Shown here: one piece after another, positions 39,228-60,697 of the stretch
Layout: every line of letters begins with the position of its first letter
Position numbering within the stretch: the stretch's first letter is position 1
Program-made: the position numbers and the translations under genes
Notes under the pieces: generated by a model
What the model was told of the DNA's origin: nothing
The model's database searches: none
What the model saw: only the letters and a program-made list of their open reading frames with translations
Origin: Hyunsoonleella flava
Lineage (GTDB): Bacteria; Bacteroidota; Bacteroidia; Flavobacteriales; Flavobacteriaceae
NCBI RefSeq assembly: GCF_004310325.1
Contig: NZ_SIRT01000005.1
Span: 124,001 to 188,000, forward strand
DNA: 64,000 bases
Direction: 5' to 3'

Positions 39228-39262
39228 AAAAAGAGCCACTATATTCTAGTGGCTCTTTTTTT
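39228..39262 (+). terminator. Intrinsic terminator before the laminarin locus
   Basis: AAAAAGAGCCACTA (39228-39241) pairs with TAGTGGCTCTTTTT (39247-39260), with a 5-nt loop and a T run. It separates the GIN-domain gene from the locus regulator and lies across the false upstream ORF start of the regulator. Confidence 0.9.
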
Positions 39263-39303
39263 AGTTTTTAAATGCACTATTACCATACACGAACCATACA
39301 TTA

Positions 39304-39334
39304 TTGTTTTTAAGCCCTGTTTTCACTACCTTCG
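39304..39334 (+). promoter_or_regulatory. Promoter of the laminarin-locus regulator
   Basis: TTG (39304-39306) and TACCTTCG (39327-39334) lie 20 nt apart, the same layout as the module at 23536. The GTG start at 39357 lies 23 nt after the -7 element. Confidence 0.6.
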
Positions 39335-39356
39335 TTACACAACAAAACTAAAACTT

Positions 39357-42402: not shown

Positions 42403-45400
42403 ATGAGACATTCATTAGTTAGATTGCTGATATTCCTTATTGTTGGGTACACTGGTGCTCAAAATATAGAGGTCAGCGGAACTGTACTGGACAATACGGG
42501 CTTTCCCATTCCAGGTGTTAATGTAATTGTCAAGAACACTACCAAAGGAACGGTAACTGATTTTGATGGAAATTTTACCCTTAGCGATGTAGAGCAGGGG
42601 GCTACACTAACTTTTAGTTACATTGGATACATCACAAAAGAAATTGTAGTTTCTGATGGACAGAAACTTACCGTTACTTTAGACGAGGATGTAGCGCAAC
42701 TTGACGAAGTAGTCGTTGTTGGTTACGGTACACAACGTAAAAAGGAAGTTACAGGAGCTGTTTCGGTTGTGGACTCTGAGGCCATTGAGAAGCTAAACCC
42801 ACAACGGGTTGAGCAAGCGCTTCAAGGACAGATTGCCGGTGTAAATGTAACCTCTACTTCAGGTTCTCCTGGCGCAGGTGCAAACATAAGGATTCGTGGT
42901 ATCACTACTAACGGAGATAATAGGCCTTTAATATTGGTAGACGGTAACGTTATAGAAGACCTTTCTGTAATAAACCCTAATGATATTAAAAGTGTAAACG
43001 TACTTAAGGATGCTACTGCTGGTATTTACGGTGTACGTGGTGCAAACGGTGTTATTTTAATCACAACAAAAACAGGTAGAAAGAATTCGGAACTTAAATT
43101 TCAGGTAGATTCGTATACAGGATTTCAAACATCAAGTAATAAGATAGATCTTTTAGATCCTTTAAATTTTGCCATCTATGTGAATGATGCGGCAGACAGA
43201 ACGGAGTATTTCGTATACCCACAAGAGGGCACTGATTGGCAGGACGAAGTGCTCAAAACTGCTGTGATTTCTAATATTAATTTTAGTGGTAGCGGTGGTA
43301 CTGAAAAATCAGCTTATACATTTGGTGCTTCTTATTTAAATCAGGATGGTATTGTAGGCGCGAGTAAAAATAATTTTGAAAGATTTACGGCAAGATTAGG
43401 ATATCAGTATGACATATTAGATAATCTTAAATTTTCTGCAACAGCGTTGTATACCAATTCCACAAAGAATAACTTACCTGAAGGTAGTATCGGTTCTGTA
43501 TTGTACAGTGCGGTCAATATCAATCCAGATTTACCAGTAAGGGATATTGATGGCGGGTTCTCGCAACCTAATCGTATTTCACAAATTGAAATAATCAATC
43601 CACTAGCTCAAATAGCAAATACGCACAATATTACCAGAGTAGATAGATACAGTGGTACTATTGGTCTGGATTATACATTTTTAGAGCATTTTACGGTAAG
43701 CTCCAAATTTCAAATAAATTATTCTAATGTTTTAAACGATGTATTTTTCCCAATCGTCAATTATGGGAACGGTAAATCGGCTAACAGAGATGTAAATGAA
43801 GTACAGGATTTTAGTGATTTATACACTGATTACACTTGGGATAACTTCATTAATTACAACAATACCTTTGGAGAAGACCATGATGTAACTGTGCTTTTGG
43901 GTATGTCTACATTTAGAACAAGAGGTCATTTTTATGGAGAAAGCGGTCTTCAACTAAGAAACGGAAGCAACTCTGTAAGTGATGCTTTTGTTGATGGATG
44001 GATTGGAGACAGAGTTGAGGGCGTGCTATCAGATAGAATTAATGATGCTTCTAAAGCTCTTGGTGGAGACCAATTTGATTCTCGTTTATCATCCACCTTC
44101 GCAAGATTACAATATAGCTATAAAGGAAAGTATTTAATTTCTGGTGTTATTCGTAGAGATGTGTCTTCAAGGTTTTCTACTGAAAACAACAACAATGTTG
44201 GGTATTTCCCTTCAGGTTCTATCGGATGGAATGTTTCTGATGAAGATTTCTTCAATAGAGAGGGTTGGCTAAACTCTTTAAAGCTAAGAGCAAGTTATGG
44301 TATCATAGGTAATGATAGAATAGCAGATTTCGCATTTCTTACGAGATTAAATGGAGAAGCGACAATCGATCCGGGAGACCCGAATGTTGTTGATGAAAAC
44401 GACTTACTTAATGGTGTAGGGGCTGGCACCATAGGAAACCCTAATTTAAAGTGGGAAGAGCAAGAAACAGCAAATATTGGTCTAGACGCCCGATTATTTA
44501 ATAATACTGTAAGCATTACTGCCGATGTATTTCGTAAGCAAACCAAAAACTTATTAATTCAACCACAGGCCCCAGGAATAATAGGTGTTGGGGCACCAGG
44601 GGCTGCTTCGCCATTTATTAACGCTGGTACAGTACAAAACCAAGGTGTTGAATTTATGATTGCTTATGACGATAATTTTTCGGATGATTTCAGGTTTAAC
44701 GTCAGTTTTAATGCGACATATCTGGAAAATGAAGTGACTTCGCTAAACGGAAGAGATGTGCCTCCAGGCGGAGAGTTTGGTGTAGGAATAAGCCAAAACG
44801 ATATTTCTAGAATGGTAGTAGGAGAGCCTTTAGGCTATTTTCATGGCTATAAAACAGACGGTATTTACCAGACGCAACAGGAAATAGATATTTTAAATGC
44901 AGGGTCTCCTACCGGAACTTATAGTACAGTTGGGGGTGTTGCACCTGGAGACTTAAAGTTTGTAGATACGAATGGCGATGGTCAAATCACAGATGCCGAT
45001 AGAACTAACATCGGCGACGCTATTCCAGATTTCACATTTGGATTTAACATCGGCTTCTCGTATAAAAAATTCGATTTTAGCGCAAATGCCTTTGCTTCAG
45101 TTGGCAATGATATGATCCGTGATTATGAGCGTAAAGACTTATTTGCAAATAGAGGTACTTATATGCTAGAACGTTGGCAAGGTTCTGGCACAAGCAATTT
45201 TGTACCAAGAGCTGTTGCAGGTGCAAACATAAATACTGATTTATTCTCAGACTTTGTGGTAGAAGATGCGTCTTTTCTTCGCCTACAAAATATTCAAATA
45301 GGGTATACAATAGACAATGAAGGTTTTAAAGAAACCGGAATAGATAAAATTAGAATTTACTTATCAGGAAATAACGTTTACACGTTAACGGATTACAAAG

Positions 45401-45507
45401 GCTACGATCCTTCAGCTACAAATGGTGCGCCAATAGGTGGAGGAATTGATAAAGGGTTTTACCCTGTTGCAGCCACTTACTTACTAGGTGTTAATTTAAA
45501 TTTTTAA
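42403..45507 (+). CDS. SusC/RagA-type TonB-dependent outer-membrane transporter
   Basis: A 1034-residue TonB-dependent receptor of the SusC family. After the signal peptide there is a carboxypeptidase-D-regulatory-like beta-sandwich (about 22-100, VSGTVLDNTGFPIPGVNVIV), the plug (about 115-225, DEVVVVGYGTQRKKEVTGAV and DATAGIYGVRGANGVILITT), and a 22-strand barrel to the C-terminus. It would import beta-1,3-gluco-oligosaccharides together with the SusD-like partner 3 nt downstream. Substrate is inferred from the neighbouring GH16, GH17 and GH30 genes. Confidence 0.95.
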   Translation: MRHSLVRLLIFLIVGYTGAQNIEVSGTVLDNTGFPIPGVNVIVKNTTKGTVTDFDGNFTLSDVEQGATLTFSYIGYITKEIVVSDGQKLTVTLDEDVAQLDEVVVVGYGTQRKKEVTGAVSVVDSEAIEKLNPQRVEQALQGQIAGVNVTSTSGSPGAGANIRIRGITTNGDNRPLILVDGNVIEDLSVINPNDIKSVNVLKDATAGIYGVRGANGVILITTKTGRKNSELKFQVDSYTGFQTSSNKIDLLDPLNFAIYVNDAADRTEYFVYPQEGTDWQDEVLKTAVISNINFSGSGGTEKSAYTFGASYLNQDGIVGASKNNFERFTARLGYQYDILDNLKFSATALYTNSTKNNLPEGSIGSVLYSAVNINPDLPVRDIDGGFSQPNRISQIEIINPLAQIANTHNITRVDRYSGTIGLDYTFLEHFTVSSKFQINYSNVLNDVFFPIVNYGNGKSANRDVNEVQDFSDLYTDYTWDNFINYNNTFGEDHDVTVLLGMSTFRTRGHFYGESGLQLRNGSNSVSDAFVDGWIGDRVEGVLSDRINDASKALGGDQFDSRLSSTFARLQYSYKGKYLISGVIRRDVSSRFSTENNNNVGYFPSGSIGWNVSDEDFFNREGWLNSLKLRASYGIIGNDRIADFAFLTRLNGEATIDPGDPNVVDENDLLNGVGAGTIGNPNLKWEEQETANIGLDARLFNNTVSITADVFRKQTKNLLIQPQAPGIIGVGAPGAASPFINAGTVQNQGVEFMIAYDDNFSDDFRFNVSFNATYLENEVTSLNGRDVPPGGEFGVGISQNDISRMVVGEPLGYFHGYKTDGIYQTQQEIDILNAGSPTGTYSTVGGVAPGDLKFVDTNGDGQITDADRTNIGDAIPDFTFGFNIGFSYKKFDFSANAFASVGNDMIRDYERKDLFANRGTYMLERWQGSGTSNFVPRAVAGANINTDLFSDFVVEDASFLRLQNIQIGYTIDNEGFKETGIDKIRIYLSGNNVYTLTDYKGYDPSATNGAPIGGGIDKGFYPVAATYLLGVNLNF

Positions 45508-45510
45508 GCA

Positions 45511-47076
45511 ATGAAAAAGATAAAAAGATTAAAGTACGTGTTCCTTACAGTACTGCTTTCGCTGGCGGCCTGTGATGAATTTACAGAAGTTGACCCGATA
45601 GGTCCAAATGCAGATAATTTCTTCAATACGGAAGAAGAGTATGAAGATGCATTGATTGGTGCCTACGATTTACTCCAGGGTACATTTTGGGGTAATTTAT
45701 TGGCAGTATCTGCATCGGATGATTTTGGATCTGGAGGAGATGCCTTCAACTACGATCAACCGGTGGTTCAGAATGTGAATTACATGATTCAAACCCCTGC
45801 AGACCAAGAGCAGTTAAGAAGTGTTTGGCAATTAATGTATGCGGGAATGAATCGTGCAAACTATTTACTAGAAAACAAGGATGAACTTGATTTTTCAGGT
45901 AAAGATGAGATTTTGGCACAAGGCTACTTTTTAAGAGCTTACTATGCTTTTCAGCTTGTGAAGTTTTTTGGAAACATACCTTTAAAAGTTGAGGAAAGAA
46001 ACGGCGTAAACAGAATAGCGGATGCTCAAGTTTTAGCTGGTGATGAACTTTCCATGCAAAGAGTGGCAAGCAAATCTGTGGCTTTCGCACTAATCCAAGA
46101 AGATTTAAAGGAAGCTATTCCTAGTTTACCTCTCACACAAGATTTACCATACAAGGTCACTAAAGGTGCGGCGCAAGCATTACTGGGGAAAGTATATTTA
46201 TTCGACGGAAAATATGCTGAAGCTGCCACGGTATTAAATGAAGTGATTAATAGTAATCAATACCAGTTAACCACAGGAGAGGACTATCAAAACATGTTCA
46301 CTACTGACGGCGAAAACGGTCCAGAATCTGTTTTCGAGATTCAATACACCAATGTTGAAGGTGCTGGATGGGATTGTATTCACTGTAGCGAGGGCTCTTA
46401 TTTTGTACAATTTAATGGTCCAAGATCTCCGTTTGATGATCCTGTTTATGCTTCAGGCTGGGGCTTCTTATTGCCATCTCAAATGTTATACGATTTATAT
46501 GATGACAATGATATGAGGAGAGATGTTACCATTTTCGATTTAAGAGAGCTAAGAGACTCAGGAGGAAATTATTCTGCCCCCAGAGAAGATACAGGGTTTT
46601 ACAATCATAAATACATGCCTAGAAAAGCTGATAAGGCAGGAAACGCGAATACAGCAGAGTTAGTGCATAAAAACAACTATCGCGCAATACGTTATGCCGA
46701 TGTGTTATTAATGGCTGCTGAGGCAGAAGCACAAAGTGGTGGTTCAAATGCTGAAAATTATCTAAACCAAGTAAGAGCCAGAGCCTATGGTGATAATAGT
46801 ATGGATTATACTTCTGCAGAAGGCGCTTTAATTGATGCTATTTATGAAGAAAGAAGAAAAGAGCTAGCGGGAGAAGGTCATAGGTTTTTTGATTTAGTAA
46901 GGACAGGAACAGCCAATGCAGCATTTGATGAATATAATGCCAATAAGCCTGACGATTTTCAATCGATTGATTTTGTAGAAAACAAGAATGAGGTTTTCCC
47001 AATTCCACAAATAGAGCTTAAGTTGGCTCTAGCCGAAGAAACTTGGGGACAAAACCCAGGATATACTAATAACTAA
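45511..47076 (+). CDS. SusD/RagB-type surface glycan-binding lipoprotein
   Basis: A 521-residue helical (TPR-like) lipoprotein with signal MKKIKRLKYVFLTVLLSLAAC (Cys21). The N-terminal FNTEEEYEDALIGAYDLL and the C-terminal IYEERRKELAGEGHRFFDL and NPGY are SusD hallmarks. It would cap the SusC barrel and capture oligosaccharide. The ATG lies 3 nt after the susC stop. Confidence 0.95.
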   Translation: MKKIKRLKYVFLTVLLSLAACDEFTEVDPIGPNADNFFNTEEEYEDALIGAYDLLQGTFWGNLLAVSASDDFGSGGDAFNYDQPVVQNVNYMIQTPADQEQLRSVWQLMYAGMNRANYLLENKDELDFSGKDEILAQGYFLRAYYAFQLVKFFGNIPLKVEERNGVNRIADAQVLAGDELSMQRVASKSVAFALIQEDLKEAIPSLPLTQDLPYKVTKGAAQALLGKVYLFDGKYAEAATVLNEVINSNQYQLTTGEDYQNMFTTDGENGPESVFEIQYTNVEGAGWDCIHCSEGSYFVQFNGPRSPFDDPVYASGWGFLLPSQMLYDLYDDNDMRRDVTIFDLRELRDSGGNYSAPREDTGFYNHKYMPRKADKAGNANTAELVHKNNYRAIRYADVLLMAAEAEAQSGGSNAENYLNQVRARAYGDNSMDYTSAEGALIDAIYEERRKELAGEGHRFFDLVRTGTANAAFDEYNANKPDDFQSIDFVENKNEVFPIPQIELKLALAEETWGQNPGYTNN

Positions 47077-47106: not shown

Positions 47107-48948
47107 ATGGATTTATTAAAAAAAGGAATATACGTTCTATCAATTTTATTGGTAGGTTTTATAACATCTTGCGAACAAGAAGATGACTTAAACATAATAG
47201 CAGGCTTAGATTTTACAGTAGCGACGCTAAACCCTGAAGGGACTGAAGCAGGCGTTGTACCCACAACGGTTCCTGGTGATGGCAGGATAGTATACTCTGT
47301 TGATTTTGGTGACCCTGCTTCAGCGGATGATGTATTTATGACGAGCGGTCCAATGGTAACTTATGTTTATCCAGAGGAATCAGCGACCTATACCATAACT
47401 GTAACAGCATCTTTATCTGGTAAGGAAGATGTTACCATAACAAAAGAGCATACAGTAGTGTTTACAGTTGAGCCAGACCCTGTAGATGCACCACCAATTG
47501 TTGGAACATGGAAATTAGCACCAGAAGCTGGAGCTCTAGGAGTTGGTCCAGCATTAAACGACGTGTCATGGTGGTCAAATTCCGCAGAAGATGTAACAAC
47601 AAGAGCATGTCTTTTTGATGACGAATATGTGTTTAATCAAGACGGAACATTCCAAAATGTAATGGGAGACCAAACTTGGATAGAACCTTGGCAAGGAGCC
47701 GCTGCAGAAGAGTGTGGTGCACCCGTATTTCCTCACGATGGTTCGGCATCTGCTACATACACCTATGCAAACGATATGATTACCATCAACGGTAGAGGTG
47801 CTTTCTTAGGGTTGGCAAAAGTTGTCAACGGTGCAGAATTAGCATCTCCAGCAGATGCAGCAGATTCAGTAACCTACATGGCAACATTGGTAGATGATAA
47901 TACTTTAGAATTAGACATAGAAGTTGCAGGTGGAGGACATTGGTCTTTTAAATTAGTTAAAGAGGCTCCTCCGGCAATATCTCCAGTAGTAGGAACATGG
48001 AAATTAGCGCCAGAAGCTGCAGCATTAGGTGTTGGGCCAGCGTTAAATGATATTTCATGGTGGTCTAATTCGTCTGAAGACGTTACCACAAGAGCATGTT
48101 TGTTCGATGACGAATACGTATTTAATGAAGATGGTACATTCCAGAATATATTAGGAAGTGAAACATGGTTAGAAGGATGGCAAGGCAATAATGGGGAAAG
48201 CTGTGGCGCGCCAATATTTCCACACGATGGTACCGCATCCGCAACATATACCTATGATGCTGGAGCTGGCACCATTACCATTAATGGTAGAGGCGCGTTC
48301 TTAGGTTTAGCAAAAGTGGTTAATGGAGCTGAACTGGCTAGTCCAGCAGATACACCAGATTCAGTTACTTATATAGCAACAGTAGATGGAAATACCATGG
48401 AACTTGATATTGAAGTTGCGGGCGGTGGACACTGGTCGTTCAAACTTGTAAAAGAAGCACCTCCTGCAAACCCATTAGTAGGAACTTGGACACTAGCACC
48501 AGAAGCTGCTGCGTTAGGGGTAGGTCCTGCATTAAATGATATTTCATGGTGGTCTAACTCGTCTGAGGACGTAACTACAAGAGCATGCTTATTCGATGAT
48601 GAATATGTGTTTAATAATGATGGTTCTTTCCAAAATATTTTAGGAAGTGAAACATGGTTAGAAGGATGGCAAGGTAATAATGGAGAAAGCTGTGGCACGC
48701 CAATATTTCCGCATGACGGAACAGCTACCGCTACTTACACGTATGACGAATCTGCAGGAACTATTACCATCGATGGTAAAGGGGCATTCCTAGGATTGGC
48801 AAAGGTTGTAAACGGAGCGGAATTAGCGAGTCCTGCCGATGCACCAGATTCAGTAACATATATGGCTAGTCTTGACGGAAATACACTAGAACTTGATATT
48901 GAAGTTGCAGGTGGAGGGCATTGGTCTTTCAAACTGGTAAAACAGTAA
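47107..48948 (+). CDS. PKD-like lipoprotein with three tandem lipocalin-like repeats, presumed glucan-binding
   Basis: A 613-residue lipoprotein (signal ends in ITSC, Cys22). A PKD-like beta-sandwich (about 35-120, with MVTYVYPEESATYTITVTA) is followed by three near-identical modules starting at residues 132, 295 and 458, each 163 residues apart. Every module begins VGTW(K/T)LAPEA, has WWSNS(S/A)EDVTTRACLFDDEY, and ends IEVAGGGHWSFKLVK, a lipocalin-like calycin pattern with many exposed Trp. Its position after SusD matches SusE/SusF-type accessory binding proteins. Three copies suggest avidity for a repetitive glucan. No catalytic residues are recognised. Confidence 0.8.
   Translation: MDLLKKGIYVLSILLVGFITSCEQEDDLNIIAGLDFTVATLNPEGTEAGVVPTTVPGDGRIVYSVDFGDPASADDVFMTSGPMVTYVYPEESATYTITVTASLSGKEDVTITKEHTVVFTVEPDPVDAPPIVGTWKLAPEAGALGVGPALNDVSWWSNSAEDVTTRACLFDDEYVFNQDGTFQNVMGDQTWIEPWQGAAAEECGAPVFPHDGSASATYTYANDMITINGRGAFLGLAKVVNGAELASPADAADSVTYMATLVDDNTLELDIEVAGGGHWSFKLVKEAPPAISPVVGTWKLAPEAAALGVGPALNDISWWSNSSEDVTTRACLFDDEYVFNEDGTFQNILGSETWLEGWQGNNGESCGAPIFPHDGTASATYTYDAGAGTITINGRGAFLGLAKVVNGAELASPADTPDSVTYIATVDGNTMELDIEVAGGGHWSFKLVKEAPPANPLVGTWTLAPEAAALGVGPALNDISWWSNSSEDVTTRACLFDDEYVFNNDGSFQNILGSETWLEGWQGNNGESCGTPIFPHDGTATATYTYDESAGTITIDGKGAFLGLAKVVNGAELASPADAPDSVTYMASLDGNTLELDIEVAGGGHWSFKLVKQ
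47500..48948 (+). repeat. Three tandem 489-bp coding repeats
   Basis: The units begin at 47500, 47989 and 48478, an exact 489-bp period in frame. Units 2 and 3 are more alike than unit 1 (the LGSETWLEGWQGNNGESCG segment occurs only in 2 and 3; unit 1 has a different form), which suggests the second duplication is more recent. Confidence 0.85.
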
Positions 48949-49064: not shown

Positions 49065-52000
49065 ATGAAGAATAATTTATTAAGATTAGTGTTTCTCTTA
49101 TTTACTTCTGCAATTTTTGCTCAAGCCAATAAAGTGGAGATAGTAAAGAATGATCAAGGAACTAGATTAGTCGTAGATGGTAAAGATTTTATGATTAATG
49201 GTATGAATTGGGATTATGTTCCAATAGGCACAGATGTTACCAATGCGAATTTCTATAAACAGTCTGATGATATTATCAAAGCAGGTTTGGATAGCGAAAT
49301 GCGACTTCTAAAAAACATGAATGTTAATGTTATAAGACAATATACTGGTGTGCCAGCAAAGTGGGTAACTTATATCTACGAAAAATATGGTGTCTACACC
49401 TTACTAAACCACACATTTGGGCGCTACGGGCTCACAATAGATGGTGTTTGGACGCCCGTTACCATTTATTCAGATGAAAAAACACAAGAGTTGTTAGTGT
49501 CTGAAATGATGCAACTGGTAGAACAGTACAAAGATGTTCCTGGGATTTTGATGTACATGATGGGTAATGAAAACAACTACGGACTATTTTGGCAAGGGGC
49601 TGAAACCGAAGATTTCCCAGAAGGTGAAGAGCAGAAACGAGCAGTTGGTGAAAAACGAGGTAGGCCAATGTATCGTTTGATGAATGAGGTTGCCATAAAA
49701 ATGAAGGAAATGGATTCAAACCATCCCGTAGCGATATGCAATGGAGATGTATTGTTCATAGATATTATAGCAGAGGAATGTAAGGATGTGGATGTTTATG
49801 GCGCTAATACTTATAGAGGGGAATCTTTTGGAGATTTTTTCCAAGTAGTAAAAGAAAAACTGGACAAGCCAGTAATGTTTACTGAATTTGGTGCAGATGC
49901 TTACAACGCCCTTACGGACAAAGAAGACCAATATTGGCAAGCGCATTATAATTTATTAAACTGGAAAGAGATTTATGAAAATGCTGCTGGTTTAGGAAAA
50001 GCAGGAAATTCAATAGGTGGATTCACGTTTCAGTTCAGTGATGGCTGGTGGAAACTAGGTTTTGATGATAGAAAAGATGCAGACACTCACCAAACTGGTG
50101 CTTCATGGAGTAATGGCGGGTATTATCACGACACTGAGAATGGCTCAAATAATATGAACGAGGAGTGGTTTGGTATTTGTGCAAAGGGACCAACTAACGC
50201 CAGAGGCTTATACGATCTTTACCCTCGCGCTTCATATTATACACTAAAAGACGCTCATGCGCTCAACCCTTATGGAGACGGTGTAAACCTAGAATTTATC
50301 GATAACTATTTTGATAATATCAATATTATGGATGCTGTTCTTAGGGCACGTGGCGATAAAGCGGCACTGTCAGGAGGTGATTCAGATAAATTGAGTATTA
50401 GTAGATTATCGGCTCAATTTACAACCTTCAATACTGGGGGTAGTTTAATAACAACTCCAGAAACAGCTGATCCTGATGACGCGCAAACGTTTCCAGATCA
50501 ACTAGGGTTCGATCATATGCAATCTTATTTCGTGGGTATCCAAGGCAAGCCCGCACCAAATATGACGGCAAATGTAGATTTTAATATTCTAGGAAATGTT
50601 GCTTCCAATCCTATAAACGAAATTTTTTATGAAAATGTAGGTCGTCCAGTTAATATAACTAATGTAGAGGGTGATCAAGTTACTCTTACAGATAACAATC
50701 GTGTACGAGTATACCAAGCAGAATTTGAATGGAAAGCTAAAGATTTTGATTTAAGAGGTTTTTATAGAACAGGCCACTACCATTGGGCTTATGAAGGCGA
50801 TTTCTTCAACCTTTATCCAGAAGCTAATTATGGCCCTAATTTAGACATTTACAACGGTGAAATTTTAGGTGTTGAAGTTGATGGTAAAGGCGATTTAAAT
50901 GGGCTTAAAGCTGCATTTGGACCTCAATTGTGGTGGGGAGCAAACCCAACAGTACTTTTAAAGTATTCTAAACACATAATGAATTGGGATGTTACGGGAG
51001 TATATCATAGAGATCTTAATACAGATTTAGAGTTTGATGACACCGGTCGTCGTTTATTAAATCAGAACCAAGTACGTTCAGGTATTATTCCGGCGTGGCC
51101 AACTGAGAGAGCAACACTTGCTTTAGAAAGAGAGTTTGGACATTTTGGAGTTACACTTGGGGGTATTTGGGGAGGAAACCCATTAAATGGAAGTTCTTTC
51201 CAGATATACTCACCAAACAATAATGCGGTGATTGTAGATAAAATACAAAGCAGTGATAATTGGGGGGCTAAGGCAAAACTTACTTACCAAAAAGGTGGTT
51301 TTAATTGGTATGCTCAAGGGTCATACATGGGATTGGTTGCAAACGGAGGTGTAGACCAAACAAGAACCTTTACGGGTTGGAGACTTAAAGACTCTGGAAG
51401 TGGAAATATGACAAATTTTTTAACAGGTTTTGCGCTTTCAGCAGGTAATTTCCAAATAGCACCTAATTTCATGTATCAGCAACCTTTGGTAGATCCCATG
51501 CCTAATGGCGTTGTAGGTCCGGGTAGATTAAGAAACGTTATTGACGACCCTTTTGCCGTAAGAAACGGTAACAGGGAAACTACTGCTGGGGAACTATTAT
51601 TAACGTTTGATCCTACACCAGGAACTTGGATGTATGAGTGGGATAATGATAGATCTGAAGACGCAAAGTTTGCAATGAATTTAGGGTTTACCTATCGTCA
51701 TCTACCAACACAAATGGATGGTCACATAGGTTTCCTAGCAGATCGTTCTTTCTTTGCTTTTGGAGAATCTGCTCCAGCTGAAGATTTATGGGAATTGCAT
51801 TCGCGCATGGTATCAAAAGTTAATTCAGATTTTGGAATTATTGGTAATTTCTATTATGGAAATGGTCAAGCAAATGGTGATTCAGATAGAACAATCACAC
51901 GTTTTGGTGGAGATTTAAGAATGATGTACAAGAACATGAAATTAATGTCTCATGTTAAAGTAAACGATTGGGGGCCATTTGATTACCATCGTGATTTTAA

Positions 52001-52253
52001 CCTAACATATCCTTTACAATTAATGTTAGATGTATCGACAACTCTAGGAAAACCAGACTGGTTTATCTTACCAAGTACACAAATTGGAATTAGAGGCATG
52101 TGGCGTTCTATGGATCAAAACTCTCCAAGATATAGCCCTACCAATACAGTTAACGATGCATTCCCTCCAGAGCCAATACTTAGTCCTGTTGGGTTTCCTA
52201 ACGGGACAGAATGGGAAATAAGAACGTATATACACATCAACATAGGCAAATAA
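49065..52253 (+). CDS. Clan GH-A glycosidase-like domain fused to a putative outer-membrane beta-barrel
   Basis: A 1062-residue protein with a signal peptide (cleavage near FAQA). Residues about 25-400 form a GH2/GH5-like TIM barrel: ingress INGMNWDY, acid/base candidate E169 in MGNEN, nucleophile candidate E274 in MFTEFGADAY, and WW-containing strand 8 (FQFSDGWWK). From about 410 to the end the sequence alternates polar and aromatic/aliphatic residues in many short strands (for example FEWKAKDFDLRGFYRTGHY, FGVTLGGIWGG), with Gly/Asn turns, and ends WEIRTYIHINIGK, the look of a 16-20-strand outer-membrane barrel. It would display or pass a glycosidase at the surface. A role on beta-glucan is inferred from its place in the locus. 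Confidence 0.75.
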   Translation: MKNNLLRLVFLLFTSAIFAQANKVEIVKNDQGTRLVVDGKDFMINGMNWDYVPIGTDVTNANFYKQSDDIIKAGLDSEMRLLKNMNVNVIRQYTGVPAKWVTYIYEKYGVYTLLNHTFGRYGLTIDGVWTPVTIYSDEKTQELLVSEMMQLVEQYKDVPGILMYMMGNENNYGLFWQGAETEDFPEGEEQKRAVGEKRGRPMYRLMNEVAIKMKEMDSNHPVAICNGDVLFIDIIAEECKDVDVYGANTYRGESFGDFFQVVKEKLDKPVMFTEFGADAYNALTDKEDQYWQAHYNLLNWKEIYENAAGLGKAGNSIGGFTFQFSDGWWKLGFDDRKDADTHQTGASWSNGGYYHDTENGSNNMNEEWFGICAKGPTNARGLYDLYPRASYYTLKDAHALNPYGDGVNLEFIDNYFDNINIMDAVLRARGDKAALSGGDSDKLSISRLSAQFTTFNTGGSLITTPETADPDDAQTFPDQLGFDHMQSYFVGIQGKPAPNMTANVDFNILGNVASNPINEIFYENVGRPVNITNVEGDQVTLTDNNRVRVYQAEFEWKAKDFDLRGFYRTGHYHWAYEGDFFNLYPEANYGPNLDIYNGEILGVEVDGKGDLNGLKAAFGPQLWWGANPTVLLKYSKHIMNWDVTGVYHRDLNTDLEFDDTGRRLLNQNQVRSGIIPAWPTERATLALEREFGHFGVTLGGIWGGNPLNGSSFQIYSPNNNAVIVDKIQSSDNWGAKAKLTYQKGGFNWYAQGSYMGLVANGGVDQTRTFTGWRLKDSGSGNMTNFLTGFALSAGNFQIAPNFMYQQPLVDPMPNGVVGPGRLRNVIDDPFAVRNGNRETTAGELLLTFDPTPGTWMYEWDNDRSEDAKFAMNLGFTYRHLPTQMDGHIGFLADRSFFAFGESAPAEDLWELHSRMVSKVNSDFGIIGNFYYGNGQANGDSDRTITRFGGDLRMMYKNMKLMSHVKVNDWGPFDYHRDFNLTYPLQLMLDVSTTLGKPDWFILPSTQIGIRGMWRSMDQNSPRYSPTNTVNDAFPPEPILSPVGFPNGTEWEIRTYIHINIGK

Positions 52254-52265
52254 AAAAAGTATATT

Positions 52266-53702
52266 ATGAAAAAAATAGATTTTAAATATCACATCGTTTT
52301 TGCCTTAATAGGCCTTATGTATGTTGTGATGACAAGTTGTGATAGAGAGGTGTCAGAAGACTTTGAACTGGCCACCTTCCCTAATAATCCTGAAATCTTT
52401 ACAGATAATCCTGTAGGTCTAACAGATGAATTTTTTGAATCTTTCGACCCCGCTACAGGAGCAAATACAGAAGCTTTTGGAGTAGATGTAAATGAGTCAT
52501 ATGCTGGAACGACCTCTATAAGAATTGATGTACCAAGTATAACAGACCCTAACGGTGCATATGTAGGCGGGATTTTTAGAGACCGTGGTGAAGGAAGAGA
52601 TTTAACAGGTTATGATGTCCTTACGTTTTGGGCTAAAGGATCAATTACTACCTCTATAGATGTTGTAGGTTTTGGTACTGATTTTGGCTTAGAGAGATAT
52701 GTAGTTAACCTTAGAGACATAGAGCTATCTACAGATTGGAGAAAGTACTACATTCCAATACCAGATCCGTCTAAATTAGTACAAGAGCGAGGTTTGTTTG
52801 CTTTTTCTGCCGGAACTCAAAAAACAAATGGTGTTGGATACACGTTTTGGATAGATGAACTGCGTTTTGAAAAGCTAGGGACTGTAGCACAACCAAGACC
52901 ATCAATTCTTGGCGGTCAAGACCAAACAGCGCAAGCAAATATTGACACCTCTGTTCCTTTATTGGGCTTTGCTCAAAAGATGAGCTTGCCTAATGGGCAA
53001 GATGTAACCGTAGAGGCCGCACCTGCATATTTTGATTTTGAAACTTCTAATCCTTTTGTGGCCTCAGTGGACGAGAAAGGTGTTGTTTCAATTGATGGTT
53101 TGGGAGAAGTAGACCCAAATACAGGTTTAGTTGATAATACTGCTAAAATTACAGCCAGCCTAGGCGGAATTGAAGCAGCTGGGTCATTAACTGTTGAAGC
53201 TGTAAATCTTGCGGTGATTTCTATCTTTAGCGATGTGTTTGCCAATGTTCCGGTAGATAATTATAATGGCTTTTACCTAGACGGTTTTCAAACTACACTT
53301 GGCGGTAGAGTTGAAGTAGATGGCAATAACATTATTGATTATACATTGCTAAATTTTGTCGCTATAGAGTTTTATGGTAGGGATGGCAGTGGCGTACAAC
53401 CAGTTGATGCTACAGAAATGACACATTTACACATAGACATTAGAGCGAATGAAATCGTAGAAGCATCAGACTTCTTTAGGATTGAACTATTCAATAATTT
53501 TACTTTAAGTAATTCGGAATCAGGAAGTTTTAACATAACTGGTAATGATTTACAAAGTAACGAATGGGTACAATTTGATATTCCGTTGTCGAGCTTTTCC
53601 GGGCTTAATAACAGAGATGCTTTAGGTGCGTTTATTTTTGTTACTGACAATACAATTGCCAACGTATCTCTAGATAATATTTATTTCTACGCCGAACAAT
53701 AA
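52266..53702 (+). CDS. Glycan-binding-like lipoprotein (two beta-sandwiches with a Big-type linker domain)
   Basis: A 478-residue lipoprotein (signal ends MTSC, Cys25). The first beta-sandwich (about 45-205, LTGYDVLTFWAKGS and GYTFWIDELRFEKLG) and the last (about 320-478, MTHLHIDIRANE and IANVSLDNIYFYAEQ) resemble carbohydrate-binding modules, as in CBM6/CBM4-type folds. A Big2-like Ig domain (about 225-312, VDEKGVVSIDGLG) lies between. No catalytic pair is seen. It lies 12 bp after the glycosidase/barrel gene and 9 bp before the GH16 frame, so it is probably a surface glucan-binding accessory. Confidence 0.72.
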   Translation: MKKIDFKYHIVFALIGLMYVVMTSCDREVSEDFELATFPNNPEIFTDNPVGLTDEFFESFDPATGANTEAFGVDVNESYAGTTSIRIDVPSITDPNGAYVGGIFRDRGEGRDLTGYDVLTFWAKGSITTSIDVVGFGTDFGLERYVVNLRDIELSTDWRKYYIPIPDPSKLVQERGLFAFSAGTQKTNGVGYTFWIDELRFEKLGTVAQPRPSILGGQDQTAQANIDTSVPLLGFAQKMSLPNGQDVTVEAAPAYFDFETSNPFVASVDEKGVVSIDGLGEVDPNTGLVDNTAKITASLGGIEAAGSLTVEAVNLAVISIFSDVFANVPVDNYNGFYLDGFQTTLGGRVEVDGNNIIDYTLLNFVAIEFYGRDGSGVQPVDATEMTHLHIDIRANEIVEASDFFRIELFNNFTLSNSESGSFNITGNDLQSNEWVQFDIPLSSFSGLNNRDALGAFIFVTDNTIANVSLDNIYFYAEQ

Positions 53703-53720
53703 TAAAAAACCTTGCTTAAG

Positions 53721-54578
53721 ATGAATAAAATTTTAAATAATAAAATAAGTACTCGCCTAGTGGGCAGTATATTGTGTGGAGCCGTAGTTTTTTTAATTGC
53801 AAGTTGCGACCCTGATGAAACACAAAAAGTAACCAATTTCAATACAATTGTGTTAGCCGAGGAATTCGATGAGGATGGCGCGCCTAACCCTGCTATATGG
53901 ACTTACGATATAGGAAGAGGTGATAATGGATGGGGAAATAACGAGCTACAGTATTATACTGATAGACCTGAGAATGTAATTGTAGAAGATGGCATGCTTA
54001 AAATCACAGCCATAAAAGAAGATTTTGAAGGCGCAGGCTATACCTCTGCAAGACTCTTAACACAAGGGTTGTTTGAACAAAAATATGGACGATTTGAAAC
54101 TAGAATGAAGCTGCCTTTTGGTAAAGGTATGTGGCCTGCATTCTGGCTATTGGGTGCTAATATTGATGACGTAAATTGGCCGTTTTGTGGTGAAATTGAT
54201 GTTATGGAAAATGCAGGTTCTAAACCTACAAAGGTGAGTGGCGCTGTTCATGGTCCAGGATATTCAGGCGGAAACCCCATATTAAAAGAATATGAATTTG
54301 AGGAAACTCGTGTAGATACAGAATTTCATATTTATGGGATTGAATGGGGCCCGCAATACATCAATTATTACGTAGATGATGCTTTGTATTTCCAAATAAC
54401 ACCAGAAAGCTTAGAGGAAGAAGAGGTACAAGAATTTAATTGGGTGTTTGATAATGGTCCGTTTTTCATGCTAATCAATTTGGCTGTAGGTGGTAATTTT
54501 GATGGAAACCCAAATGAAGACACCGTGTTTCCTCAAACCATGTATGTTGACTACGTGAGGGTTTACGCCGCAGAATAA
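53721..54578 (+). CDS. GH16 endo-beta-1,3-glucanase (laminarinase), lipoprotein
   Basis: I choose ATG 53721 (a TTG at 53712 adds three residues). The protein has 285 residues, and its signal ends FLIASC (Cys29). The GH16 signature is GEIDVMEN: nucleophile E158, assisting D160, acid/base E163. The three-residue spacing between D160 and E163, with M162 between them, is the laminarinase (ExDxxE) type with its beta-bulge, as opposed to the ExDxE of kappa-carrageenases and xyloglucanases. It would cut laminarin at the outer membrane before SusC/SusD uptake. A strong hairpin follows at 54591. Confidence 0.93.
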   Translation: MNKILNNKISTRLVGSILCGAVVFLIASCDPDETQKVTNFNTIVLAEEFDEDGAPNPAIWTYDIGRGDNGWGNNELQYYTDRPENVIVEDGMLKITAIKEDFEGAGYTSARLLTQGLFEQKYGRFETRMKLPFGKGMWPAFWLLGANIDDVNWPFCGEIDVMENAGSKPTKVSGAVHGPGYSGGNPILKEYEFEETRVDTEFHIYGIEWGPQYINYYVDDALYFQITPESLEEEEVQEFNWVFDNGPFFMLINLAVGGNFDGNPNEDTVFPQTMYVDYVRVYAAE

Positions 54579-54660: not shown

Positions 54661-57600
54661 ATGATTATTACTGAACCACATAATGTTTTAAATGAAACAA
54701 GGGGTATAAAAGGCGAATTGGTCACTTTTAACAACGAAACTTATTACAAGATTTCAAATAGTGACGAAATGCGTCCGTTTTTCATGAGCATCGTAAGCGA
54801 CTCTAACCATTGGATGTTTATATCAAGCAATGGCGGCTTAACGGCTGGTCGTAAAAACGCTGACTATTCATTGTTTCCTTACTATACTGATGACAAGATT
54901 ACTGAAATGGCTGAAATTACAGGAAGTAAAGCCATATTTCACGTTAACCAAAACGGAAAAACACGTCTTTGGGAGCCATTTTCTATCCGTCAAACGGGAA
55001 TTTATAAAACACAAACCAATCTGTATAAAAACAGATATGGTAATAAAATAGTTTTTGAAGAAATTAATCTGGATTTAAAACTAACGTTCAGGTACGAATG
55101 GAATTCTAGCAACAAATTTGGGTTTGTAAAAAAATCAACCTTAATCAATAATTCTGACACAAAAGTTGGGGTTTCAATGCTTGATGGCTTACAGAATATA
55201 TTGCCCGCTAGCGTAACTGCAGATTTACAAAACACCAGAAGCAACTTGGTTGACGCCTATAAGAAAAGTGAATTACAAGAAGAAGTAGGCTTAGGCATTT
55301 ATGCGTTAAGCTCAGTTATAGTAGACAAAGCAGAACCTAGTGAGGCTTTAAAGTCAAATATAGTTTGGTCATCTGGTTTACAAGACCCTACTTATTTAAT
55401 ATCCTCATTGCAATTAGATAGCTTTAGAAAAGGTAAATCGGTGTCTCAAGAGGTAGACATGAAGGCCGAAAAAGGTGCTTATTTTGCGGTGTCTAAAATC
55501 GAATTGGCAGAAGGAAGCGCTAAAAACTGGATGTTTGTCGCTAATGTAAATCAATCTATTACAGATGTGGTTCAAATTTCAGAAATTATTAAAAATGAAT
55601 CTGATTTAGAAGGCTTGGTTCAAAACAATATTGATTTTGGAACAAAAAATTTAATTGATTTAACAGCTGCTTCTGATGGGCTACAGCAAACAGAGGATCC
55701 CTTAACAAATATGAGGCACTTCTCGAATACGCTGTTCAATATTATGCGAGGCGGCATTTTTGATGACGGCTATACCATTGAGAAGTCAGATTTTTTAAAG
55801 TACATAGCCCATGCGAATCAGGATGTATTCAAAGAAAAACAAGCGGTTTTATACAGTTTAAGCGATAAATTTTCTTTAGATGCAATTCAAAAACTTGCAG
55901 AAAGAGATGATAACCAGGATTTTAAACGTTTATGTTTTGAATACCTACCATTAAAATTCAGTAGAAGACATGGCGATCCAAGTAGGCCTTGGAATAAGTT
56001 CTCAATCAATACAAGAAGTGAAGTTGATGGGTCTAAAATTTTAGATTATGAAGGGAACTGGCGTGATATTTTTCAAAATTGGGAAGCCCTGGCACATTCT
56101 TACCCAGAGTACATTGAAGGAATGATTCATAAGTTTTTGAATGCCACAACTTTTGAGGGTTATAATCCATATCGAGTAACAAAAGACGGTTTTGACTGGG
56201 AAGTAATTGAAGAGCATGACCCATGGTCCTACATTGGATATTGGGGCGATCATCAAATAATTTATTTGCTAAAATTTCTTGAATTTATTGAAGACCACTA
56301 CCCTGGTACTTTGGAGAAACGCTTCAACCAAGATGTATTCGTATATGCTAATGTGCCTTACGTTATCAAAAGCTATGAGGACACCCTAAAGAATCCAAAA
56401 GACACTATTGATTTTGACCATGAATTAGACCGAACCATCCATAAACGAAGAGATGTTTTAGGTGCGGACGGTGCGTTACTATTGGATCAAAATGCAAACA
56501 TCTATCACGTCAATTTTATTGAAAAAATATTGGCTACCCTACTTTCAAAAATTTCAAACTTTATTCCAGAAGGCGGTATTTGGCTAAATACGCAAAGACC
56601 AGAATGGAATGATGCAAACAACGCACTTGTGGGCAATGGCGTGTCTATGGTAACGCTTTATTACATCTATAGGTTCTTAAATTTCTTTGAAGGTTTAGTT
56701 ACAAATACAGATACTAAATCGGTAAAAGTTTCCGAAGAATTAAATGTTTTCTTCAATCAAATTTCTGAGACCCTACAAAACAATGCAAATATTTTATCTG
56801 GAAACATTTCGGATAAAGACCGCAAAACGGTACTTGATGGATTGGGTAAGGCAGGAAGTAAATACAGGGCTACAATTTATAAAAATGGATTTTCAAATTC
56901 GAAAACTGAAATAAGTTTAGTAGACATATCAAGCTTTATTGAGGTTACTAAATCGTATTTAGAGCACAGTATTGATGCCAATAAGCGCGACGATAATATG
57001 TATCACGCCTACAATTTAATGACGGTTGAAAACGATAATGAAGTTTCCATTTCGTACTTATCTGAAATGCTGGAAGGACAAGTAGCAGCATTAAGTGCAG
57101 GTTATTTATCGCCTAACCAAGCATTGAACGTATTGGATGGCTTGAAGAATAGTTCGTTATTCAGACCAGACCAATACAGCTATATTTTATATCCTAACAA
57201 GGAGTTACCTCGATTTGATAAAAAGAATAATATTCCAGAGAGTAAAGTGGAGCAATCTGAATTACTTAAGCGATTGATTGCCGACGGAAACAGACAAGTT
57301 GTTGAAAAGGATGTAAACGGAGGTTATCATTTTAATGGTAATTTCAATAATGCAGATAGTTTAAAGGATGCACTATCTAGCTTAGATAATAATTATAAAT
57401 CGTTAGTGAGTAGAGATGAAGAATTTTTGCTTCAAACGTTTGAAGATATTTTTGATCATAAGTCATTTACAGGACGTTCTGGAACCTTCTTTGGATACGA
57501 AGGTTTAGGGTCTATTTATTGGCATATGGTGTCTAAGTTATTATTAGCCGTTCAAGAAAATTGCTTGATGGCAGTTAATAACAATGAAGATGACACGATA

Positions 57601-58107
57601 ATCGGACGACTTTTCGATCATTATTATGAGATTAACGCGGGCATCGGGGTACATAAATCGCCAGAGCTATATGGGGCTTTCCCGACAGACCCTTATTCGC
57701 ATACACCAGCTACAAAAGGTGCGCAACAGCCAGGAATGACAGGTCAGGTGAAAGAAGATGTATTGAGCAGGTTTGGTGAATTGGGTATTTCAGTTGAAGC
57801 TGGTAAAATTATGTTCAAACCAAGCATGCTTCAAGAAAAGGAGTTTTTAAATGCTCCAAAAACATTCCGTTATATCGATGTGAATAAAACAGAGCAAGAG
57901 CTTTTACTGGATAAAGACATGCTGTGCTTTACATATTGTCAAGTTCCCGTAGTTTATCAATTATCTGATACGGAAGGTTTGGAAGTTGTTTATAGTGATG
58001 GAAAACAAGTGAAATCTAATAGTAAAAGTTTGGATGAAGCTATTTCAAAATCACTATTCGAAAGAACAGGCGATGTACAAAAGATTGTTGTTTTTATAAA
58101 TAAGTAA
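54661..58107 (+). CDS. Large cytoplasmic protein, probable beta-1,3-glucan phosphorylase (GH149-like, tentative)
   Basis: A 1148-residue protein without signal peptide. The N-terminal beta-sandwich (FFMSIVSDSNHWMFISSNGG and ADYSLFPYYTDDKI) followed by a long helical (alpha/alpha)6-type region (WRDIFQNWEALAHSYPEYIE, DPWSYIGYWGDHQI) recalls GH94/GH149/GH161 phosphorylases, which split beta-glucans with phosphate to glucose-1-phosphate. The size fits GH149, beta-1,3-oligoglucan phosphorylases, better than GH94. Lack of a signal and its place between GH16 and GH17 genes support intracellular breakdown of imported oligomers. The family call rests on layout and size, not on a verified match. Confidence 0.55.
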   Translation: MIITEPHNVLNETRGIKGELVTFNNETYYKISNSDEMRPFFMSIVSDSNHWMFISSNGGLTAGRKNADYSLFPYYTDDKITEMAEITGSKAIFHVNQNGKTRLWEPFSIRQTGIYKTQTNLYKNRYGNKIVFEEINLDLKLTFRYEWNSSNKFGFVKKSTLINNSDTKVGVSMLDGLQNILPASVTADLQNTRSNLVDAYKKSELQEEVGLGIYALSSVIVDKAEPSEALKSNIVWSSGLQDPTYLISSLQLDSFRKGKSVSQEVDMKAEKGAYFAVSKIELAEGSAKNWMFVANVNQSITDVVQISEIIKNESDLEGLVQNNIDFGTKNLIDLTAASDGLQQTEDPLTNMRHFSNTLFNIMRGGIFDDGYTIEKSDFLKYIAHANQDVFKEKQAVLYSLSDKFSLDAIQKLAERDDNQDFKRLCFEYLPLKFSRRHGDPSRPWNKFSINTRSEVDGSKILDYEGNWRDIFQNWEALAHSYPEYIEGMIHKFLNATTFEGYNPYRVTKDGFDWEVIEEHDPWSYIGYWGDHQIIYLLKFLEFIEDHYPGTLEKRFNQDVFVYANVPYVIKSYEDTLKNPKDTIDFDHELDRTIHKRRDVLGADGALLLDQNANIYHVNFIEKILATLLSKISNFIPEGGIWLNTQRPEWNDANNALVGNGVSMVTLYYIYRFLNFFEGLVTNTDTKSVKVSEELNVFFNQISETLQNNANILSGNISDKDRKTVLDGLGKAGSKYRATIYKNGFSNSKTEISLVDISSFIEVTKSYLEHSIDANKRDDNMYHAYNLMTVENDNEVSISYLSEMLEGQVAALSAGYLSPNQALNVLDGLKNSSLFRPDQYSYILYPNKELPRFDKKNNIPESKVEQSELLKRLIADGNRQVVEKDVNGGYHFNGNFNNADSLKDALSSLDNNYKSLVSRDEEFLLQTFEDIFDHKSFTGRSGTFFGYEGLGSIYWHMVSKLLLAVQENCLMAVNNNEDDTIIGRLFDHYYEINAGIGVHKSPELYGAFPTDPYSHTPATKGAQQPGMTGQVKEDVLSRFGELGISVEAGKIMFKPSMLQEKEFLNAPKTFRYIDVNKTEQELLLDKDMLCFTYCQVPVVYQLSDTEGLEVVYSDGKQVKSNSKSLDEAISKSLFERTGDVQKIVVFINK

Positions 58108-58156: not shown

Positions 58157-59371
58157 ATGCTAGAATCTAAGAAAAAGAGACATACACAAAAGCAGTTAAC
58201 AGCCGCTGATATTCTAGGAAACCCTGATTACCTTGCTATTTCCTATGGAGGCTATCGTCACAAAACACGCGATATTCAGCCAACGGTTAGTGAGCTCAAA
58301 GATGATATGAAGCTATTATCAGCAATGGGCATCAAAATATTGCGGACTTATAATGTACAGCTACAACAGGCTTCCAATCTGTTAAAAGCCATTAGTGAAT
58401 TAAAGCAGGAAGATTCATCCTTTGAAATGTATGTGATGTTAGGCGCATGGATTGACTGTAAAAATGCGTGGACTGACATGATGCCCAACCATGAAGTAGA
58501 AAGTGAGCAAAATGCAGGTGAAATTGATCGCGCAGTAGCTTTAGCGAAACAATACCCAGATATTGTAAAGATAATAGCTGTGGGTAATGAGGCTATGGTG
58601 CATTGGGCCACAAGTTATTTTGTGAGACCAACTGTTATTTTAAAATGGGTTAATCATTTACAAGAATTAAAGAAAAGCGGCGAGCTTCCAAACGATTTAT
58701 GGATTACTAGTTCTGATGATTTTTCTTCTTGGGGAGGAGACTCTAATTATCATAATGAAGATTTGAACAACCTTATCAGGTCTGTAGATTACATTTCAAT
58801 GCACACCTACCCTATGCATAACTCGCACTATAATCCTGATTTTTGGATGGTTCCCGAGGAAGATGTAGAGCTATCAGACAAAGAAAAAATTGAATCTGCA
58901 ATGCAACGCGCTTTGTTGTTTTGCCAGAACCAATATGATAGTGTTGTAAATTATATGCGAAGTCTTGGCATTAATAAACCGGTACATATCGGTGAAACGG
59001 GATGGGCAACTATTTCTAATGAGCATTATGGCGCTGATGGGTCAAAAGCAGCTGATGAGTATAAATCGGGAAAATACTATCAACTTGTGAGAGAGTGGAC
59101 TAACACTGAAGAAATATCATGTTTTTATTTTGAAGCATTTGACGAACCTTGGAAAGACGCAGAAAACCCACTAGGTTCTGAAAATCATTTTGGATTAATC
59201 AACTTAAAAGGTGAGGCTAAATACGGCATTTGGGATTCGGTAGACAAAGGTGTTTTTAAAGGGTTGACAAGAGATGGTATGTCTATTACAAAAACCTACA
59301 ATGGCAAAGAAGAAGATTTGCTAGAGGATGTACATGTGCCGCCTAGGAAGGAAGAAACCGTAAACTATTAA
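58157..59371 (+). CDS. GH17 beta-1,3-glucanase, cytoplasmic (no signal peptide)
   Basis: A 404-residue GH17 enzyme. The acid/base is E145 (VGNEAMVHWA) and the nucleophile E280 (IGETGWA). The N-terminus (MLESKKKRHTQKQLTAADIL) is charged with no hydrophobic run, so the enzyme is cytosolic. It would hydrolyse short beta-1,3-gluco-oligosaccharides brought in by the symporter. The next gene, 2 nt away, is a close paralogue with a lipoprotein signal; the two arose by tandem duplication. Confidence 0.92.
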   Translation: MLESKKKRHTQKQLTAADILGNPDYLAISYGGYRHKTRDIQPTVSELKDDMKLLSAMGIKILRTYNVQLQQASNLLKAISELKQEDSSFEMYVMLGAWIDCKNAWTDMMPNHEVESEQNAGEIDRAVALAKQYPDIVKIIAVGNEAMVHWATSYFVRPTVILKWVNHLQELKKSGELPNDLWITSSDDFSSWGGDSNYHNEDLNNLIRSVDYISMHTYPMHNSHYNPDFWMVPEEDVELSDKEKIESAMQRALLFCQNQYDSVVNYMRSLGINKPVHIGETGWATISNEHYGADGSKAADEYKSGKYYQLVREWTNTEEISCFYFEAFDEPWKDAENPLGSENHFGLINLKGEAKYGIWDSVDKGVFKGLTRDGMSITKTYNGKEEDLLEDVHVPPRKEETVNY

Positions 59372-60681: not shown

Positions 60682-60697
60682 TAGAGAACTTATTGAG

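Follow-up and report, generated by a model that had tools for sequence, protein, structure and literature searches.

The window analysed here, a 64,000-nucleotide stretch of the Hyunsoonleella flava genome (contig NZ_SIRT01000005.1, positions 124,001 to 188,000, forward strand), contains a laminarin locus in which one open frame is predicted to encode a glycosidase followed by a beta-barrel. We refer to this glycosidase-barrel fusion gene as GHB; structural models support its description as a clan GH-A hydrolase fused to a plug-less outer-membrane barrel. The window holds both a SusC/SusD pair and GHB (Table 1), and its genome yielded a single GHB match.

Table 1. Parts of GHB and genes of the surrounding locus, in window coordinates.
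Feature	Coordinates	Strand	Basis or remarks
GHB, glycosidase-barrel fusion gene	49065..52253	+	1062 aa, one open frame
Signal peptide, residues 1-21, without lipobox cysteine	49065..49127	+	Sequence read by eye; predicted helix 2-19
Clan GH-A glycosidase domain, residues 22-402, GH158/GH157-like TIM barrel	49128..50270	+	Pfam, Foldseek and profile matches
E169, predicted acid/base, in GNEN	49569..49571	+	Invariant in 101/101; aligns with GNE of 6pal, 9oro and 1yq2
E274, predicted nucleophile, in TEFG	49884..49886	+	Invariant in 101/101; aligns with TEFG of 9oro and TEWG of 6pal
Helices 409-417 and 421-435, then ~7-residue linker to strand 1	50271..50390	+	Models
Outer-membrane beta-barrel, residues 443-1060, 24 predicted strands	50391..52244	+	Models, alternation, Foldseek
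Long conserved periplasmic turn 16-17, residues 849-868, candidate enzyme-docking site	51609..51668	+	Conservation 0.91
Conserved periplasmic turn 22-23, residues 995-1003, candidate enzyme-docking site	52047..52073	+	Conservation 0.90
Y_Y_Y/LuxR-type regulator	39249..42170	+	Pfam
SusC transporter, same locus	42403..45507	+	TIGR04056, 850 bits
SusD lipoprotein	45511..47076	+	PF07980, PF14322
PKD/lipocalin-like lipoprotein, three tandem domains	47107..48948	+	Pfam lipocalin match just under cut-off
Lipoprotein partner (here SGBP), next gene after GHB	52266..53702	+	Lipobox MTSC
GH16 lipoprotein, predicted endo-beta-glucanase	53712..54578	+	PF00722; lipobox IASC
GH149 beta-1,3-glucan phosphorylase	54661..58107	+	NF058639, 1817.8 bits, cut-off 1150
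GH17-like enzyme	58157..59371	+	PF00332, 24.6 bits, under cut-off 28.2
GH17 enzyme	59374..60681	+	PF00332, 32.5 bits
GH30 beta-1,6-glucanase-like enzyme	60626..62203	+	PF02055; NF053856 under cut-off
MFS sugar transporter, inner membrane	62222..63652	+	PF13347

The sole Pfam domain found in GHB is Glyco_hydro_2_C (PF02836), which covers residues 73-292 (25.4 bits, cut-off 21); the enzyme domain carries this label of glycoside hydrolase family 2 (GH2) because the TIM barrel is common to both. The N-terminal sugar-binding and Ig-like domains of the GH2 type were not found, as PF02836 alone matches and the enzyme begins directly after the signal peptide. With the full model as query, the best Foldseek matches were to GH158(Pro), 9p26 (E 2.9e-12) and 9oro (E 8.1e-12), followed by the GH157 structures 9fz9 and 9g5g, one of them with laminaribiose, and then by GH2 glucuronidases; the model thus shows the (beta/alpha)8 fold of GH158 and clan GH-A. 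A profile of the enzyme domain matched 6pal, which we take to be BuGH158, as well as 9oro and 1yq2, all weakly (E 4e-4 to 1e-3, with 4e-4 for 6pal). GNE lies in register in all three, and TEFG/TEWG in 9oro and 6pal only. According to the available portion of the published study, N136, E137 and E220 are essential in BuGH158 (PMC7157763). The asparagine-glutamate acid/base pair and the glutamate nucleophile of GH158 and clan GH-A are both present in GHB, and N168, E169, E274, R91, N115, Y250 and W329 are identical in 101/101 sequences, a set made up of the window, 80 near loci and 20 distant loci. The near loci are the best 80 of at least 591 matching stretches in species genomes, and represent near relatives because the best matches were kept; they were read for 8 kb to each side, the distant loci over 20 kb and ten genomes over 40 kb. 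Judged from sequence and models, the enzyme domain is of clan GH-A and resembles GH158, its profile matches to that family being weak, and it is predicted to cut the beta-1,3 backbone of laminarin. With the GH158 endo-beta-1,3-glucanases BuGH158 and GH158(Pro) it shares the TIM barrel, the catalytic residues and the laminarin setting, and they are its best structural match, but they have no fused membrane barrel and their sequence similarity to GHB is weak (GH158(Pro), profile E 5e-4).

Both halves of GHB are under purifying selection (dN/dS, the ratio of nonsynonymous to synonymous substitution rates, of 0.02-0.09 in 10/12 comparisons with computable dS, dS being near saturation). The enzyme is unlikely to be degraded or inactive, since its catalytic residues are invariant and dN/dS is low. 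At one locus, L030 (G061:C1:1624682-1627827; loci and genomes bear L and G numbers), GHB is split between one frame for residues 1-289 and another, overlapping it, for residues 285-1062, which from the sequence appears to be a frameshift or sequencing error within the enzyme domain.

The full-length AlphaFold2 model, computed from an alignment of 70 of the 81 near sequences, consists of the TIM barrel, helices 409-435 and then 24 long strands (mean predicted local distance difference test, pLDDT, 71; predicted template modelling score, pTM, 0.53), and residues 403-1062 modelled alone gave the same 24 strands (pLDDT 71, pTM 0.71). Because residues 401-430 reach a pLDDT of 86-92 in the full model, against 42-60 for residues 403-432 in the barrel-only model, helices 409-435 presumably pack with the enzyme. 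Hydrophobic/polar alternation along the modelled strands, scored on the Kyte-Doolittle scale with W and Y raised, was 2.64, compared with 1.45 (standard deviation 0.22) in within-strand shuffles, none of which reached 2.64 in 5000, and 1.11 (standard deviation 0.17) in stretches of the enzyme domain. Strands 1, 2 and 19 alternate weakly (0.20, 0.95 and 0.51), and the true strand count could therefore be 22 to 24. When the barrel-only model was searched with Foldseek, the 50 listed of 786 matches (E <= 10) were all outer-membrane barrels, with 16 to 26 strands, chitoporin and AlgE among them. An even number of amphipathic strands, short turns, long loops and a signal peptide, as expected of an outer-membrane barrel, are all predicted.

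Sequence comparison found no relative for this barrel. No Pfam model matched C-terminal to the enzyme at E <= 0.1, and neither the Plug nor the CarboxypepD-like domain was found in GHB, whereas the window SusC matched both; 70 family barrels scanned singly against Pfam gave nothing significant (best E 0.044). A barrel profile had no sequence relative among PDB chains even at E <= 10, profile-profile comparison with SusC gave a probability of 0.2% (from a shallow barrel profile, Neff 1.8), the SusC models of NCBIfam did not match GHB, and PHROGs yielded no match. A SusC relative that has lost its plug is not supported, given the lack of a PDB sequence relative and of SusC profile similarity. 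A soluble multi-domain fold for residues 400-1062 was rejected on the basis of the barrel-only model, the strand alternation and the Foldseek matches. A preliminary description of this DNA, made from the sequence alone, had proposed a clan GH-A-like pair, E169 in MGNEN and E274 in MFTEFG, joined to a barrel of 16 or more strands with no SusC plug or CarboxypepD-like domain, and had asked for structure prediction and a fold search; these have now been run and bear out each of these points, with the hydrolase motifs aligning with clan GH-A and the C-terminal part predicted as a barrel.

In outer-membrane proteins, short turns face the periplasm. The odd-to-even connections of the 24-strand barrel average 24.9 aa and the even-to-odd ones 4.7 aa, and because strand 1 starts on the short-turn side, some seven residues after the enzyme, both termini of GHB, and hence the enzyme, are predicted to be periplasmic. 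The suggestion made earlier that substrate is cut at the pore mouth holds as regards the predicted fusion of hydrolase and barrel, but the loop lengths would put the enzyme at the periplasmic exit and not at the outer mouth. Among the 101 sequences, conservation is 94-98% in loops 5-6, 7-8 and 21-22 and 90-91% in the two longest turns on the periplasmic side, a pattern that suggests a path for the substrate and a face on which the enzyme docks.

From the computed features of GHB (the fusion, the fold classes, the conserved catalytic residues, the gene neighbourhood and, in many loci, the lack of SusC/SusD beside it) we infer a membrane topology, a pore function, a substrate and a ratchet, and on balance we favour the view that GHB is an outer-membrane laminarin importer that carries its own enzyme. 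In this arrangement, the C-terminal barrel would lie in the outer membrane, and the neighbouring lipoprotein and GH16 enzyme would gather and trim laminarin outside. The laminarin chain would enter the barrel past the conserved, aromatic-rich outer loops and emerge into the periplasm, to be cut in its beta-1,3 backbone by the GH158-like domain tethered there. Such a cut at the exit would keep the chain from slipping back, so that entry runs in one direction, and could take the place of TonB-driven transport through SusC/SusD, while free GH17, GH30 and GH149 enzymes and the carrier of the major facilitator superfamily (MFS) would complete laminarin breakdown and uptake. The most economical account may be that GHB combines the job of SusC with that of a free enzyme, that is, outer-membrane passage and the first periplasmic cut. 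Like a TonB-dependent transporter of the SusC/RagA type, GHB has a large barrel, the same operon place, a lipoprotein encoded next and a (predicted) periplasmic N-terminal domain; unlike it, GHB has no plug or carboxypeptidase-like domain and no profile similarity, and the enzyme stands in place of the plug. Chitoporin and AlgE are likewise plug-less outer-membrane barrels for glycans, but have 16-18 strands and no fused enzyme.

Several points weigh against an importer, some structural and others, taken up below, from the gene neighbourhood. Model confidence is moderate, and the full-length model does not settle where the enzyme lies relative to the barrel. The Foldseek alignments to GH158 run past the domain (rmsd, root-mean-square deviation, 18), the query having been the full model and not the enzyme domain by itself, and the TM-scores of the barrel matches are low (0.24-0.37, query-normalised). 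The conserved loops could be loops that close the barrel.

The freedom that the model leaves in enzyme placement would also suit a surface-displayed laminarinase, in which the barrel serves only as an anchor and the enzyme is threaded to the outside, as in an autotransporter. Fusions of an N-terminal passenger enzyme to a barrel are a known type of secretion, and type V autotransporters resemble GHB in holding enzyme and C-terminal barrel in one chain. In addition, the available portion of PMC7157763 gives the cell surface as the predicted location of the Bacteroides uniformis GH158 enzyme. We nonetheless consider surface display unlikely, since only about seven residues connect the last helix of the enzyme to strand 1, which begins on the short-turn side. 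Autotransporters export their passenger through a 12-stranded barrel, whereas GHB has 24 predicted strands, no autotransporter Pfam match and an enzyme predicted to stay in the periplasm. Finally, in the standalone homolog of locus L185, described below, the lipobox is followed by GGP and not by an acidic surface-export signal.

The proposed importer is accompanied by a lipoprotein in nearly all loci. A homolog of the partner lipoprotein lies directly downstream of GHB in 77/77 near loci with a downstream open reading frame (3/80 end earlier) and is the next gene in 19/20 distant loci, and a homolog of the regulator lies directly upstream in 49/80 near loci and was seen in 1/20 distant loci. 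In three distant loci of two families (L149-L151) the frame of the partner lipoprotein is longer, at 732-846 aa, with a weak Big_2 match in L150, and between the lipoprotein and GH16 genes of L149 and L150 lies one for a ROK-family protein that has a DNA-binding domain. Within the window, a 489-bp unit repeated 2.9 times in tandem at 47503-48942 (78% matches) makes up the three lipocalin-like domains of the lipoprotein encoded upstream of GHB, and the GH17 (59374-60681) and GH30 frames overlap by 56 bases, so that the GH30 start codon may be further in.

SusC and SusD, in turn, are often absent beside GHB. Profile hidden Markov models detected neither on the GHB strand in 42 of the 66 near loci whose upstream flank exceeds 7 kb, nor on either strand in 19/20 distant loci, and seven of ten GHB operons read over 40 kb are free of SusC/SusD, the other three having them. 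Fourteen further near loci have short flanks, and one of these has SusC. The one-window view of the preliminary description was right in placing GHB in a laminarin locus, but its role shifts once relatives are included, as most related loci read have no SusC/SusD beside it. The window SusC, used as a query at E <= 1e-200, found nothing in the seven genomes with SusC/SusD-free operons, and one close SusC (46-100% identity) in 9/11 comparison genomes, within the laminarin locus in G000, G125, G071, G008, G017, G070 and G025 and on another contig in G043 and G046. Five genomes, G034, G025, G064, G043 and G046, make this comparison of 7 and 11 genomes less clean, and G034 and G064 have no close ortholog of the window SusC despite SusC/SusD in the operon. 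As far as these sequence searches go, the usual laminarin SusC is missing from the seven genomes; a divergent one elsewhere is possible.

GHB could accordingly have an accessory role, cutting laminarin near a SusC/SusD pair in the same locus or elsewhere and importing nothing itself. The pair stands beside GHB in the window and in 21/66 near loci; in 3/66 a SusD is truncated at the edge and both genes are probably present, two of the 42 loci (L037, L055) have a SusC-like gene on the opposite strand, and all these near-locus counts rest on the 8-kb flanks. A divergent SusC can serve a GHB operon: that of L169 (G034:C1:1112061-1115027) shares no more than 35% identity with the SusC of the window (E 2.4e-123), and that of G064 falls short of E 1e-120. 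At E <= 1e-120, SusCs of 35-39% identity appear elsewhere in 5/7 SusC/SusD-free genomes (best 37-39%), and since the SusC of the G034 operon is no closer than these, a divergent laminarin SusC could lie elsewhere; at this threshold none was found in G028 and G085. Some SusD (PF07980) occurs in 17 of 22 GHB genomes (that of the window, those seven with SusC/SusD-free operons, and 14 from the distant set of 20), and in three of the five that lack PF07980 a SusC scores above the family cut-off. Nevertheless, we think an accessory role rather improbable, given the many loci without the pair beside GHB (42/66 near, 19/20 distant), the lack of a close SusC ortholog in all seven genomes with SusC/SusD-free operons, and four of the 22 genomes, each at least 99% complete, in which no SusD was detected with PF07980 and PF14322 (the fifth genome without PF07980 gave a weak PF14322 match). 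The divergence of the L169 SusC also means that the SusC/SusD pairs found next to GHB do not form a single orthologous set; on sequence grounds they may have been acquired more than once. It is very improbable that GHB is instead a polysaccharide exporter with a trimming enzyme, like AlgE or PgaA-type systems, for although AlgE is among the Foldseek matches and exporters often have periplasmic partners, the surrounding genes are catabolic (GH16, GH149, GH17, GH30, MFS) and no glycosyltransferase or synthase was matched among the scanned neighbours.

GHB, for which we continue to favour an importer role, is common. Whole or partial GHB was found in 33/149 sampled genomes of the same taxonomic family, its own included, and 13 further genomes hold only short, enzyme-only homologs, which also occur in 2 of the 33. 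Across whole genomes this co-occurrence is about that expected by chance, and we do not claim genome-wide mutual exclusion. The barrel profile matched 13/295 genomes in a class sample, all in frames of 1041-1093 aa, and 30/296 in a phylum sample, at 31 places comprising 28 frames of 1028-1084 aa and three fragments; a near-full-length barrel frame was thus found in 28/296 sampled phylum genomes, its own included. Apart from the three fragments, no barrel without an enzyme was found in the 295 and 296 genomes, with at most four candidates scored per genome. Enzyme and barrel share one frame in 28/28 checked loci from the two barrel searches, a check that leaves out three phylum matches, and the enzyme was also in the barrel frame in distant loci fetched for five more genomes.

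Eight of the 13 genomes with only a short homolog were read, and one match (L181), a protein with a type IX secretion system tail that lies outside a laminarin locus, was set apart. The other seven loci lack GHB and encode a standalone GH158-like enzyme of about 336 aa, in five cases with SusC and SusD in the operon and in two with neither nearby. This enzyme has the catalytic residues, the DGWWK motif and the operon company of GHB, but no barrel; the homolog at L185:9258-10265 is 31% identical to the GHB enzyme domain and reaches GH158(Pro) at E 3.9e-10. A standalone relative was found in 1/10 GHB operons over 40 kb, a weak match of 33 bits against 79-96 for true ones, and in 1/80 near loci, a count of little weight because no near locus reaches the MFS gene and 24/80 reach the GH17 gene. 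The laminarin loci read therefore mostly carry either SusC/SusD with a free GH158-like enzyme, or GHB. In two genomes of 1.7-1.9 Mb, G043 (L180 with L190) and G046 (L184 with L191), clusters of GH149, GH17, standalone GH158-like, GH30 and MFS genes have neither SusC/SusD nor GHB nearby, and a close SusC lies on another contig (55% and 46% identity, respectively).

Published loci appear to contain both forms. In the available portion of one study, a laminarin locus of Muricauda contains GH16, GH149 and, upstream, a GH2 beta-glycosidase, and many clusters begin with a LuxR gene (PMC13188888); by gene order, this GH2 beta-glycosidase is probably GHB. Laminarin loci with GH158 or GH0 have also been described (PMC10877868, PMC10108472; available portions). 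By gene order, the standalone enzyme of these flavobacterial laminarin loci is probably the GH0/GH158 of the published variant-1 loci, and the GH0 of PMC10108472 would be this standalone enzyme. The available portions of these three papers do not mention a barrel for these genes. In the titles and abstract openings of the open-licence literature, no description of a glycosidase fused to an outer-membrane barrel was found.

Laminarin is the main algal storage sugar and a major marine carbon currency. In Bacteroidota, laminarin uptake is attributed to SusC/SusD, and locus prediction usually starts from that pair; as many GHB loci have no SusC/SusD beside them, searches based on the pair could miss them. 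We advance, tentatively and with some doubt, the wider proposal that GHB and its lipoprotein form a second system for glycan import in Bacteroidota, independent of SusC/SusD, with transport given its direction by hydrolysis at the exit and not by TonB. If true, GHB would be a pore into which an enzyme is built, laminarin uptake by this route may need no TonB, and GHB may represent a novel mode of uptake for a sugar that is among the most abundant in the ocean.

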